Positions 3,246-20,841 of a stretch of DNA of 64,000 bases are shown here, one piece after another. The DNA is from Mesodorylaimus sp. YZB2_4 (lineage: Eukaryota; Nematoda; Enoplea; Dorylaimida; Dorylaimidae), in contig JASANH010000626.1 in assembly GCA_030248295.1 (NCBI GenBank), forward strand, positions 930,001 through 994,000. The letters are read 5' to 3'. A program made the translations under genes and the position numbers. How positions within the stretch are numbered: the first letter of the stretch is position 1; every line of letters starts with the position of its first letter. The notes under the pieces were generated by a model. That model made no database searches. It was not told where the DNA came from and saw only the letters and a program-made list of their open reading frames with translations.

Positions 3246-4134
3246 TCAGTGCCTTGGAACCGAAAGTCACTCATCGTATAAACGCCATCATTTTGCACCC
3301 ATCATCTTCCGTTCCGATTGTGTATGGATACCTCGTGACGCAAGGCAGAAGTACATTGAGCGAGTAAGAGGACAGGCGAGGTATCTACGGTACCTTCCTT
3401 CTTCGTTTCTGCGATTTTCGAAGGAAGTTTTTGAAGTAAATACGTTGCTGCGAATCGAACCCAAACGGACCGAGCCTGTGATGGGTTCCTGAGTATTGTA
3501 CTTGGTGACCCAAACTGACGATTATCCTTCTGGCGCTTCTGAACGCAATCAAGAATTGGAGACGGCCCGAAGCCATTGTAAGATGACTGACACTCAGGGT
3601 AGGGAGTCGAAGGGGGGGGGGGCAGTTGACATGAAATGATAGCTCGCGAATAAGTTAGAACAAAACATGAATTAAAAGCATCTTATTCCAGATCTAGATG
3701 AACCGTTGAAGATCTTTGACGGTATGGCCTAGGTCTGCCTCTCGGTGGGTGAGCGTGAACGTATGTACAGTAGGTGCCAGATTTATCCGACAGAACGTCG
3801 CAGTGTGGCTTATGATGTTGATATAAATTGGAAACGGGCGCTCCATGGTTTTGTCCAAAAGCTGCAAATAACACTGAAGTTTCGAAAACTGGCAGATAAC
3901 AGATACGGCATTGATTCAGGTGAAAGTCGATAGACCTGGCGGACGACCAGCGCACTCTGCACTCTCGCTATATCAGTTGATGCGTGCAAACATGTGACGT
4001 CACAACTAGTCCTGGGCACAGCCCTATTCACTTGGCTTCGTGCACTGGCATGAACATTTAGCCAACTGCTTGCAGCCCAGTTTCACTCACTCTCACCCGT
4101 GTAACCGTTTCTAATTCTCTTCTCTCCCTTCAAC
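3246..4134. other. Intergenic upstream of panC; 11-bp poly-G tract
   Basis: No supported gene was seen. A run of 11 G occupies 3612-3622. The last 40 bp before the panC ATG are pyrimidine-rich (TTCTCTTCTCTCCCTTCAAC), resembling a eukaryotic leader. No Shine-Dalgarno-like sequence is present. Confidence 0.45.
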
Positions 4135-4965
4135 ATGAAAATAGTGCACTCTGTCGATGACTTACGCCATGAATTGAATACCAGGCCCAATTCGACCCGC
4201 GTCTTTGTTCCCACCATGGGCAATCTTCACGAGGGCCATCTATCCCTTGTTCGCTTAGCTCGCCAACACGGTGACTGCGTGGTCGTCAGCATATTCGTCA
4301 ACAGACTCCAGTTCGAACCCCACGGCGATTTCGACAAGTACCCGCGCACATTGGACGACGATATCAAACAACTAGCACAAGAAAACGTCGACCTGCTTTT
4401 TGCCCCCGATGAAAAAGTGTTGTATCCCGAAGAGCAGCAATTCAAAATTTCGCCACCACCAGAACTAAGCCAAATCCTGGAGGGCGAAACCAGACCGGGT
4501 TTCTTCACTGGTGTTTGCACTGTGGTCATGAAATTACTCTGGTTAGTACAGCCAGCTGTGGCCATCTTGGGCAAAAAGGACTACCAGCAACTACTCATCC
4601 TCCAATGGATGGCATCCCAGTTCAACATGCCCGTTCGCGTGCTGCCTGGTGAAAACATCCGCGACGAGGACGGGTTGGCTTTGTCGTCGAGGAATGCTTT
4701 CCTGAACGAAGACGAAAGGAGGGAAGCCCCCATCCTTTACCAAACCCTGCTCTCCATTCGGGAGAAGGTGCGGGCGGGTCAAAAGGACTTTAGAGCACTG
4801 GAACGCGAGGCCATCGAGAAGTTGACCAGCCGGGGATGGAAGCCATTCTACATCTCCATTCGGCAACGCCAGCGGTTACGAAAGCCGACTGGTGACGACG
4901 AGCTGGTTGTCCTGGCCGCAGCGCAGTTAGGAACTGTGCGGTTGCTTGATAATCTTGAAATATGA
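4135..4965 (+). CDS. panC: Pantothenate synthetase (pantoate-beta-alanine ligase), bacterial type
   Basis: This full-length 276-aa intronless protein would make pantothenate from D-pantoate, beta-alanine and ATP, the last step of vitamin B5 synthesis and the entry to CoA. Visible signatures are the HIGH-type nucleotide motif in TMGNLHEGH (about residues 27-35), IFVNRLQF, the RPGFF/GVCTVV segment, GKKDYQQL (about 146-153), DGLALSSRN (about 179-187) and a C-terminal [22 protein letters not shown] and the C-terminus match beta-proteobacterial PanC better than the Escherichia coli form (VNPMQF, GEKDFQQL), as far as I recall those families. Animals normally lack this enzyme. It sits between a GPCR and the 3' end of spliced USO1, so it is embedded in the animal genome. 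No panB was seen here. No mitochondrial presequence precedes the domain, so it is probably cytosolic. Confidence 0.93.
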
Positions 4966-5333
4966 GTGATTTGACTGCGTACTGTAAAGGCGAGGATTGA
5001 GCCCAGGTCGCCGACCCACACCACAGAGTCCTCACTTCGACCACCCCCCCCCGTATTCATCGCACTTCACCAACCAAGAACCAAGTGCTTTACATAAATA
5101 CGACCCCGCATTCCCAATAGCCATTCAGACATAAGCAGGTTCACGTTCCTGGAAACCTCTTCCACCATTAATACCTTATCACACCTTCAGCCAAGAGCGT
5201 TATCAAATCCGGAAAAACGGAGCCAAGTTCAACCAGCTTTAACCTGCGATAAAGGAAACCAAATTATTTAGTCTAGGGATCATCAGAAATGGTGCGAGTG
5301 CACTTCAAACCAGTCAATTCAATATTCCTATCA
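4966..5333. other. Convergent 3' spacer between panC and USO1
   Basis: This 368-bp spacer separates the panC stop from the stop of USO1 on the opposite strand. A short C tract lies near 5043-5052. No further gene was seen. Confidence 0.5.
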
Positions 5334-8300
5334 CTAACGCAGGTCATAATAATCTTCACCGTCTCCCCTCGTTCTCGTGCCGACCGTATTTGCTCCTATT
5401 TCGTACTGACCATATCCTGGCTGCGTGCTCCAATTCAGACCAGAAGCGTAAAGTTGGTGCCCACTGTTCTCGCCGCTGAATACGAGTTGCTGGTGTTCAT
5501 GAACGCGCTGACTCTCCACGTCGTCTTCGGCCTCCTCTTCTTCCTCTTCATCTTCTTCATCATCACTTCCGTGGCCCGCCGCCAGCAAATTGTGTTCTTT
5601 CAATAATTTTCTGTATTCTTTCAATTTCTGGTCCTGATCAGCACACAGGACCAGTAGATCTTCTTGCTCCTTGCGAAGATTCGTCAGTTCTTCAGTCAAC
5701 GCAGCTCGCTCGGAATCCTTTTCTGCGGCTGGCTGTTGGACTGCAATCTCAGCCTTAGCCACATTCTCTCTTTCGGCATTCGCTGCAGCCAATTTTTCGT
5801 ATTCGCCTCCCCAATATTGAGCCCATTGCTGATGATATTCGAGTTGCTGTTTCGTTTGTTCGTTCTGAGCCAAAGCATTGCTCAGCTGCTGGCTTTGATT
5901 CTCATAAGCTTGCCACCCAAACGATAACTGAGTCTCGAGGTCTTTCACTTGTGCCTCCAAACCAGCCACAATTTGCTGACTCTCCGGCACCACCTAAATT
6001 TAAGTATCGATTCTAAGGCTGCATTCAAATCTCCAAAATAGTCAAACCTGTGCTTCGTAGTAAGCTCTCCACTGCGCACAGTGTTGACGCCAGGAAGCCA
6101 GCTCCGTCTGATTTTCCGTGTTGACCACTTTTGCTTGTTCCAACTCTGACGATAAACGAGACGTTTCGGCAACCAGGCGCTGAATTTCAGACTGCTGACG
6201 GTCAATAGTCTCGTTTAAAAAGCTCAGTTGAGACGGGTCCGCGATCCCCTTGGATACCACATCCGCAGTTGAAGGGGCATTGGTCTTCTCCTATTTTAAA
6301 AGTCGAAGTCACAGTGAGCTACACTAAAACTGACCAAAACCTTACCGTCATCAGTTTCTTTATCTGTACTTCTTTTTCGTCCACCAGCTTGCACTTATCC
6401 GCCAATTTCTGCTGCAAACTAGATAATTGACTTTCGTATTCTTCTTCTCGCCGACGAGTCTCTACAGTTGAACCGGCCGCTGCGATCGCTTGCGACTCCA
6501 AATCTTTGATCCTTTGCTTCAACGATATCATTTCAGCGTCTTGACGCTTGATCAAGTCTTTATATTGCTGTACGACTGTGTGGTGTTGCTCGGCCGTTTG
6601 AGGCGGCAAGGCCGACAATAAATCACCGTTCAATCCCGACTGATCAATACCGTGTCCGTCATCGACCATTGGCGTCGATTCTTTGGATCGCCGGCCACCA
6701 TCACCCACTCGCCCGAGTCCGCGACCTTGAGACGAATCAGCCGAACGAACGATGCGGCTCAGCTCCGATTCGAGGTGACGGAACGATTTGGTGAATTCGT
6801 GATCAAATAGCAATTCCGCAGGCTGTTTGGCTTTAGGCTGAGGCTTTTGAGCAGCACGGGCGTATGGCTCTGATTTCGATACTGACGCAAGCTGATCAAT
6901 GAAAACTCCGCGAGTGATACGATTTTCTAAGAGCTGTTGAAGAGCCCGTCTAAAAAAATGTAGTCAAGATTTATGTCCCCGATCCCTCTAATCGTTCCCT
7001 CTGCACACCAACCTGTTGAACTTTTCCACCGAATCGTCATTATATAGCAAACACAACCCCAAGACGAAAGCGCACATTCCGGACGCCAACGTTTCCATCT
7101 CGTCTCCTTCGGTCATACACGCTTGGCTCGTTAACTGAAAATACACACGATTTGAGAAAGTCACTCCACGATGTCGCAAACCCGATTTCACTTACATATG
7201 GTACATGGGAGGAATGTTGCAAGAACTGCGCCACAGAAGCCGGACTCTCCGACAACCATCCCGACAATAACATTAGCACACCCAGCCGCACTTGCAAGTC
7301 ACGAGCTTGGGTTAGAACGGCGCCGACTTGTTGCAGCAACGATACAGGAGGACTTCCAACACCAGCGGCCATCTGCACACGTAATAGGCGTTCTTTTTCC
7401 ACTGCTGGTGCGTCCAATACGCAATGTAAAAGTAGGCAACAACTGAACCATACGACCAAAGGATCGGAACTGACCAAACCGGAACACAGAAGGTGGCCAG
7501 CGGTTATGTCGTTCCCTAAAGGACTACTGCGCGTCCATATACGGGTACCGGGCCAGACCACGATCCAAAACTAAGCACTTACCTTGAGTGGTCGACGGAA
7601 GCAGTGTTTGGATGATTTCTCGTTTTCCCTTTTCATTTTTGTGTAAGTAACACTGGACGCAATACAAAGCCGCAGTCCTCATAACGAACGGCTGCCTTTC
7701 GTTGCCCATCGACATAATCAGTACCAACGTTGCCGACTGGGGCGGTTCGGACGGTGCCATCAACGCCCCAAAGTAATCTTGATTCGGCTGATAGCCACGG
7801 ATGATTTCCGCCACTGTGTTTATCGTTTCGGTCAGCACATCGGCCGGCACTCCACCCGACAGCAACAAATGACACAGCTCACCCAGCAGCCCACAAGCAT
7901 TCATCGACTTCTGAGCGCCCACAGTCAGGTTGCCGCCGGAACTTGTTGGCGAGACTAATGCACGAATCACCTAAAAATGCTGGTAGGTACTAAAATATTC
8001 TGTCCCACATCACCATACGTCTTACTTGAAATAACAAATGGACATTGGAAACGCGCTGAGCAGTCCATTGAACTTCGCCTTGATTTCGACCGTGATCGCC
8101 GGTGTCGTTGAAATGTTCGTGCAACTCGTCATCCAGAACGTCAGATGCATTCCCCGACAACATTCGCAATAACAATGGCAAACGTGGTATTAACGAATTC
8201 TCACGAAATAGTTGCTGATTGCTAGAATTGTTCTTCAACAGTTGTATGGTGACGTAAAGACAGTCCTCCGCCACGATACCTAAAAAAATTAGGGTTTAGG

Positions 8301-19848: not shown

Positions 19849-20841
19849 TTGCCGCGAATGAGGGAAATCGCGCAAGACATGGAAGGCTGCGCCTCGCCAA
19901 TGGGGCCTGTAGTTTCAGGAGTGCCACAAGGCTCCCGGCTGGCGCCAATTCTGTTTACGGCATTTATCAATCATATTCTTGAAGATTTCACGAAAGAATT
20001 TCCAGATGTTGTCCTTCAGGCCTATGCTGACGATCTGGCACTGCTTTGCCCTGTGTTAAAAAATGATATCCTCTGCAATGATTTCCAGGCTGCGATTGAC
20101 TGGATAAAGAAGAAAGTGAACGATATCGGTCTTGAATTCAACGCTGATAAAACTCAAGGCTGTTTATTCCACTTTGGACGCTTGCAATCTATACCGATTC
20201 TTAGGCTCGATGGGAAGCAGATTGTTTTTACTGACACTGTGAAGTACCTGGGTGTTCAGCTATCCGCAAACATGCAATTTCAAGAACACTGTCGTCAGCT
20301 CGCCTCATCTTGCAGGCGTATGATCGGTGCATTTCGCCGCAAGTTTGGAAAATTGGCTACCAATGTTCTGAAGACCGTCTATACACAATGCATTCTCCCT
20401 CGTCTCGATTATGCATCCTCTGTTTGGGCTCCGACACAAAAGAAAGCAATCATCGACCTAGAAAAAGTTCAAAAATTTGCAGTTTGCTGCATACAAAACC
20501 AATGGCATATTGACTATGTCACCACGTTGGCTGCCCTAAAGTTGCCTAGTTTGGAAAATCGTAGAAATCAACTGAAACTAATGCAGTTCTACCGGATTTA
20601 TCATGGGCTGACTGCCTATCCGTCACATCAACGACTAACCCATACCGACATGTCTGGTCGTAGGTTCAGTGAACGCACAACGGCTCCTCACCATCTTGAA
20701 ACCCCTGCTGGGAGAACTGCAACATACTCGCAGGCTTTCGAAGTGTCAGCCATAAAACTGTGGAATGATTTACCGTATGATATAGCGAATAGTCCGTATG
20801 ACACTTTTAAGCGATTCGTTTCCAATCTTTGTTTTAATTGA
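19849..20841 (+). mobile_element. 5'-truncated non-LTR retrotransposon (LINE), reverse transcriptase C-terminal part
   Basis: A 330-aa open frame carries reverse transcriptase block 4 (SGVPQGSRLAPILF), the catalytic AYADDLAL, the downstream block KYLGVQL and the thumb-proximal LPRLDYASSVW, then a non-LTR C-terminal stretch ending in PYDTFKRFVSNLCFN. The endonuclease and N-terminal RT blocks are missing, so it is the 3' part of a Jockey/CR1-like element, truncated as is typical for target-primed insertion. It has no internal stop across its length, so it may be fairly young. No target duplication was identified. Confidence 0.85.

Follow-up and report, generated by a model that had tools for sequence, protein, structure and literature searches.

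An intact bacterial-type pantothenate synthetase gene in a nematode genome, likely acquired from a Burkholderiales-related betaproteobacterium

Animals are generally taken to rely on their food for vitamin B5. Here we describe an intact bacterial-type panC gene, encoding pantoate–beta-alanine ligase (pantothenate synthetase), at positions 4135–4965 (+ strand) of a 64,000-nucleotide stretch of the genome of the nematode Mesodorylaimus sp. YZB2_4. This stretch (the window) comprises bases 930001–994000 of a contig of 2,531,197 bases (JASANH010000626.1, C1 below) in an assembly of 145 Mb (GCA_030248295.1). The account that we favour, with good confidence, is of a gene likely gained by horizontal transfer from a Burkholderiales-related betaproteobacterium, likely before its host and at least one relative diverged; its product is predicted to act as a functional pantothenate synthetase in the cytosol.

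The panC open reading frame (ORF) begins with ATG, has no internal stop codon, is preceded by an in-frame stop at 4102 and encodes 276 amino acids in a single exon. Its product matches the PF02569 profile with an E value of 1.5e-89 and 300.1 bits (cut-off 20.7) over residues 2–274 of 276 and profile positions 1–267 of 268, a match far beyond chance that places the protein in the family, and structure comparison showed that it has the PanC fold. Transfer of a published active-site list (PMC5772511) by motif spacing located the catalytic residues at H32 and H35 (MGNLHEGH), N56 and Q59 (VNRLQF), K148 and Q152 (KKDYQQ) and S184-S185-R186. The reading frame, profile match and motif positions confirm the original prediction for this locus, which had described an intact, intronless PanC of 276 residues with its catalytic motifs. 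As also predicted, no GGAGG-like Shine–Dalgarno sequence was visible by eye in the 20 bases 5′ of the ATG, a pyrimidine-rich stretch. A scan of positions 3600–5400 for bacterial promoters and terminators returned two and three sites, against shuffle means of 1.6 and 1.8, and thus no signal. AATAAA is absent between 4966 and 5340 downstream of the gene; a CATAAA at 5093–5098 (+ strand), 128 bases past the stop codon, is a possible variant polyadenylation signal, weak in that it is a hexamer match only. A G run (3614–3622) and a C run (5044–5052) flank panC as part of a weak 21-nucleotide inverted repeat (76% complementary) that probably reflects chance or homopolymer expansion.

A relative search in which 8000 candidates were scored and the best 120 listed placed in that list two proteins at 70–73% identity and 118 at 59–62%. 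The named relatives among the 120 comprise Caballeronia, Paraburkholderia, Burkholderia, Trinickia, Pandoraea, one Janthinobacterium record and Burkholderiales bins. A GTDB genome scan, with patterns that favour FVNRLQF-type PanC, yielded at least 597 stretches and at least 579 relatives, the best 80 loci standing at 57–61% and all being Burkholderiales by title. A PanC match was present in 139 of 150 genomes sampled from the Burkholderiales; 30 loci from this sample were kept and 20 added, giving 50. Our main tree holds 77 rows: the window protein and its two closest listed relatives, P0001 and P0002 (hereafter the three copies), and 74 bacterial rows, made up of 25 of the 80 named loci, 48 of the 50 sampled loci and Neisseria gonorrhoeae. 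The remaining 55 named loci, L084 and L085 (two of the 30 loci kept from the sample), Escherichia coli and P0003–P0120 stand outside it. The three copies form one clade (support 100/100) on a stem that is long, at 1.24 changes per column. This clade adjoins, with support of 92/78, another of 39 rows, in which those with names belong to Burkholderiaceae, Oxalobacteraceae or unclassified Burkholderiales. A narrower tree of 56 rows includes N. gonorrhoeae and E. coli besides 51 of the 80 named loci; it again unites the three copies (100/99), next to the whole set of 51 named rows, and carries long-branch warnings. Compared with nine bacterial rows, the three copies have in common a two-residue insertion and EPHGDF, ENIRD and GWKPFY variants. 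By sequence, the solved structure nearest to the window protein is that of Burkholderia thailandensis PanC (PDB 3uk2; 348 bits), which also ranks in the top three by fold; this bacterial protein lacks both the insertion, near residue 18, and these variants. Together, the relatives at 59–62% and the tree support the predicted horizontal transfer from a beta-proteobacterium-like donor, and, judged from these sequence comparisons, panC was likely acquired from a betaproteobacterium near the Burkholderiales.

Fungi and plants possess PanC, which would allow a vertically inherited eukaryotic gene to have been kept here and lost in other animals. Against solved structures, the window protein scores 348 bits with Burkholderia, 275 with Neisseria, 207 with E. 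coli, 183 with Mycobacterium tuberculosis and 130.7 with the PanC of Candida albicans (9b2q; 33% identity by structure alignment), the sole eukaryotic PanC compared. The C. albicans sequence lies outside the tree, whose rows besides the three copies are bacterial and which sets the three-copy clade beside Burkholderiales rows; the protein thus groups with bacterial PanC over the one fungal sequence. Nesting among eukaryotic PanC, an outcome that the original prediction had named as fatal to it, is therefore disfavoured, and we rejected vertical descent on the score against this one fungal PanC, considering it to have almost no chance of being correct. Contamination with bacterial DNA, or a chimera made during assembly, by which the panC segment would be foreign to the animal chromosome, would account for an intronless gene of bacterial sequence. 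However, panC lies about 934 kb into the 2.53-Mb contig, and matches to the nematode cuticle collagen N-terminal family PF01484, which we take to be nematode-typical, occur on both sides of the window, at about 166, 169, 174 and 300 kb and 1.46, 2.03 and 2.17 Mb. The family has 133 matches assembly-wide, these seven included; no match occurred in 14 control genomes, which, being prokaryotic throughout, are uninformative about other animals. Because these collagens occur across the assembly and either side of the window, the host is a nematode, which sharpens the 'animal' genome of the prediction. None of 12 further ORFs or exons scanned in the window looked bacterial, the composition of panC is host-like, and no bacterial panB, panE or panD was found in the assembly. 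Moreover, besides P0001 and P0002 no listed relative exceeds 62%, and the best genome loci reach 57–61%.

Contamination or a chimeric join can also be set against the neighbourhood of the gene in a second assembly. P0001, the closest PanC relative (73%), and P0121, the closest relative (77%) of the G-protein-coupled receptor (GPCR)-like gene upstream of panC, each come from an 8,843-base contig of an independent assembly. Because both source contigs have this length, the two proteins would lie on one contig, and the GPCR–panC neighbourhood is apparently kept in another animal. P0002 (70%) derives from a jgi-source contig of 1,820 bases, and we infer that both P0001 and P0002 are of animal origin. 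A search with the last exon of the downstream neighbour, USO1, gave one match (54%) with a longest contig of 1,047 bases, leaving the apparent conservation beside P0001 confined to the GPCR side. The contig size, the collagen flanks and the apparently recurring neighbour pair locate panC in a nematode chromosome. On these grounds we rejected contamination or a chimeric join, the other refuting outcome that had been named, as so improbable that it can be set aside.

The composition and divergence of the gene bear on its age. GC content at third codon positions (GC3) is 0.62 in panC and 0.42–0.66 in eight other window ORFs, against 0.83–0.92 in nine of ten sampled bacterial panC genes. Pairwise, the three copies differ at 72 to 82 of 276–278 residues. 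All three keep 59 of the 65 columns that are at least 98% conserved in the 74 bacterial rows, with changes falling in other columns (Fisher p 1.5e-9), and all retain every active-site residue checked. When neutral change was simulated to 72 differences, only 7 of 300 runs were free of stop codons. Because one clade of three copies keeps all checked catalytic residues, with the frame intact beyond neutral expectation, panC is likely under purifying selection. Column conservation and simulation thereby lend support to a claim that had been drawn from the intact frame. The acquisition likely predates the split of the Mesodorylaimus host from at least one relative.

Several observations weigh against a horizontally acquired, working enzyme as we have described it. 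Approximately unbiased (AU) tests allow the three copies to stand outside a 43-row (p 0.384) or 45-row (p 0.159) core clade, outside a Burkholderiales clade of 61 rows (p 0.333) or together with a different clade, of 16 rows (p 0.08). With these four placements unrejected at 0.05, the donor is betaproteobacterial in kind and its exact branch unpinned; a genus-level assignment is beyond the resolution of the tree and AU tests. Residue 174 (4654–4656) is Asn in all three copies, in a column that is at least 98% Thr in the bacterial rows. By motif spacing it is equivalent to M. tuberculosis Thr186, which contacts ATP (PMC5772511), and the substitution could alter PanC kinetics. In the predicted model, segments 62–70 and 116–119, near the active site, mostly have a predicted local distance difference test (pLDDT) score below 50. 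At 0.44, the GC3 of one of the ten sampled bacterial panC genes (L052) is down at the level of host genes, and composition alone is thus no proof. The gene is intronless, unlike the panC of the cyst nematode Heterodera schachtii. Finally, the placement of P0001 and P0121 on one contig was inferred solely from the equal 8,843-base lengths.

We examined the rest of the pathway by profile searches of this one genome (E ≤ 0.001), with positive controls among 14 prokaryote genomes. The assembly contains no match to PanB (PF02548; controls positive in 11 of 14), to ApbA/PanE (PF02558; two candidates scored and failed; 14 of 14) or to PanD (PF02261; 8 of 14), and a complete pantothenate pathway in the animal was rejected on this basis. 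The reported lack of panB and panE in the window is thus borne out genome-wide. Of the further claim that panC gives pantothenate synthesis, the last step stands as a prediction and the full pathway does not, the upstream families not having been found. Pantothenate kinase (PF03630), by contrast with these families, was found as 11 exon-sized pieces, which indicates that intron-split genes are detectable by profile search. Five of the 11 carry an in-frame stop inside the match, which would mean either that short introns were read through or that the copies have decayed; the pieces lie at C18:53620–54880 (four, three with a stop), C20:170519–170662 (one, with a stop) and C31:846619–851402 (six, one with a stop).

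Since PanB, the ketopantoate-making step, was not found, pantoate would come from outside, and panC most likely performs the last step only. By the standard PanC route, the enzyme would convert pantoate and ATP to pantoyl-adenylate, and attack by beta-alanine would then release pantothenate and AMP. The pantoate might derive from food, host tissue or microbes, and beta-alanine would be drawn from ordinary animal metabolism, in which pyrimidine breakdown yields it. The product would then be taken up by the pantothenate kinase and coenzyme A (CoA) synthesis of the animal itself, making panC a means of pantoate salvage, not of full synthesis.

A functional PanC could instead be supplied with pantoate by a bacterial symbiont bearing panB and panE, rather than by food or a plant host. 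Such a split pathway would suit an animal assembly in which the panB and panE families were not found, and animal–symbiont splits of this type are known in insects. The absence of any PanB match, the profile search being the one look taken for a symbiont, indicates that no PanB-bearing symbiont was co-assembled, though symbiont contigs may have been filtered out, and we regard symbiont supply as unlikely. Alternatively, the protein may have been repurposed as a ligase for different acids and amines, or may have ceased to serve CoA supply. The missing upstream pathway, the long branch and the common Asn174 at a position that by motif spacing contacts ATP are compatible with such a change. Yet all three copies keep every checked active-site residue, and cyst nematodes, in the available passages of PMC9582021, also carry panC alone, with Hs-panc1 of H. 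schachtii rescuing an E. coli panC mutant; repurposing is accordingly a poor candidate. We therefore retain salvage of outside pantoate by a conventional PanC as the preferred reading.

The genes on either side of panC are those that had been predicted, a GPCR and the 3′ end of a spliced USO1, as family matches and intron patterns indicate. The upstream neighbour (486–1940, + strand) is a single-exon GPCR-like gene of 484 amino acids that reaches 30.3 bits with PF00001, just under the cut-off of 30.5. It has only four relatives at E ≤ 0.001 among 7993 proteins scored, and is perhaps a fast-evolving or lineage-specific receptor. Downstream, the 3′ part of USO1/p115, a vesicle tethering factor, occupies 5334–8274 (− strand), the gene extending past this stretch; it is convergent with panC, 368 bases apart. 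Its last exon matches PF04871 over the cut-off, two further ORFs match PF04869, likewise over the cut-off, and one of those two also PF18770, and two other ORFs of this part gave no family match. Candidate introns, recognized by pattern, are short and GT-AG, for example 7195–7135. Elsewhere in the window, an ORF of 330 amino acids (19849–20841, + strand) with a PF00078 reverse transcriptase domain (63.8 bits) is a retroelement piece, and Rfam and tRNA scans found nothing. The canonical spliced leader 1 (SL1) 22-mer, a nematode marker, has no exact match in the assembly (no mismatch was allowed, and spliced leader genes may be unassembled); this absence would fit, weakly, an early-branching, non-chromadorean nematode.

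Bacterial-origin panC is already known from several nematodes, one of them Burkholderia-like. The available passages of PMC5664137 describe three PF02569 occurrences in the transcriptome of Longidorus elongatus, a clade 2 plant parasite, and none in X. index, and argue that the L. elongatus domain, which resembles Burkholderia, is independent of an actinobacterial-type gain in clade 12. The novelty of the window gene is accordingly lower than had been rated. Both are nematode PanC sequences resembling Burkholderia, but the L. elongatus gene is known from a transcriptome, without a genomic place or tree in those passages, whereas the window gene is anchored in a contig. The two plausibly stem from the same ancestral acquisition. 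For H. schachtii, the available passages of PMC9582021 report panC only, with a plant PANB gene supporting infection; as here, the nematode genome holds just the last vitamin B5 step and the precursor is external. Hs-panc1/2 differ in grouping with Actinobacteria, having introns and forming two tandem copies (PMC9582021), whereas the window gene is Burkholderiales-like, intronless and single-copy. No actinobacterial affinity was found for the window protein: Burkholderiales account for the named relatives in the list of 120, and its score with actinobacterial M. tuberculosis PanC is 183 bits, against 348 with Burkholderia. The window and cyst-nematode genes are most likely independent transfers. 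Another parallel in small ecdysozoans comes from the mite Aculops lycopersici and tetranychid mites, which, in the available passages of PMC7738191, acquired panB as well as panC; panB was not found in the window genome.

Both longidorid transcriptomes hold GH12 and GH32, according to the same available passages of PMC5664137. Neither family was found in the window assembly (0 matches; controls positive in 2 and 4 of 14, respectively); pectate lyase (PF03211) also gave no match, uninformatively, as no control was positive. A genome without detected GH12 and GH32 would be compatible with a bearer of panC that is not a plant parasite, and panC may not be tied to plant parasitism. Tentatively, and as no more than one possible history, an early-branching nematode lineage would have taken up a betaproteobacterial panC before and independently of plant parasitism, first using it to salvage pantoate from food microbes or soil, and Longidorus-type parasites would have inherited it. 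In the literature searched, with most subscription papers outside its scope, we recognized no genome-anchored betaproteobacterial panC from a nematode; what is new here is the genomic anchoring, the apparently conserved neighbour and the tree, along with a genome in which GH12 and GH32 went undetected. A betaproteobacterial panC fixed in a nematode, with its neighbour apparently kept and its sequence seemingly under selection, is evidence that the final step in making vitamin B5 entered nematodes more than once. If its bearer is not a plant parasite, the accepted link of panC gain with feeding on plants would need broadening to pantoate salvage in general. The window locus also provides a genomic anchor for asking whether a single event gave rise to it and to the Longidorus transcripts.
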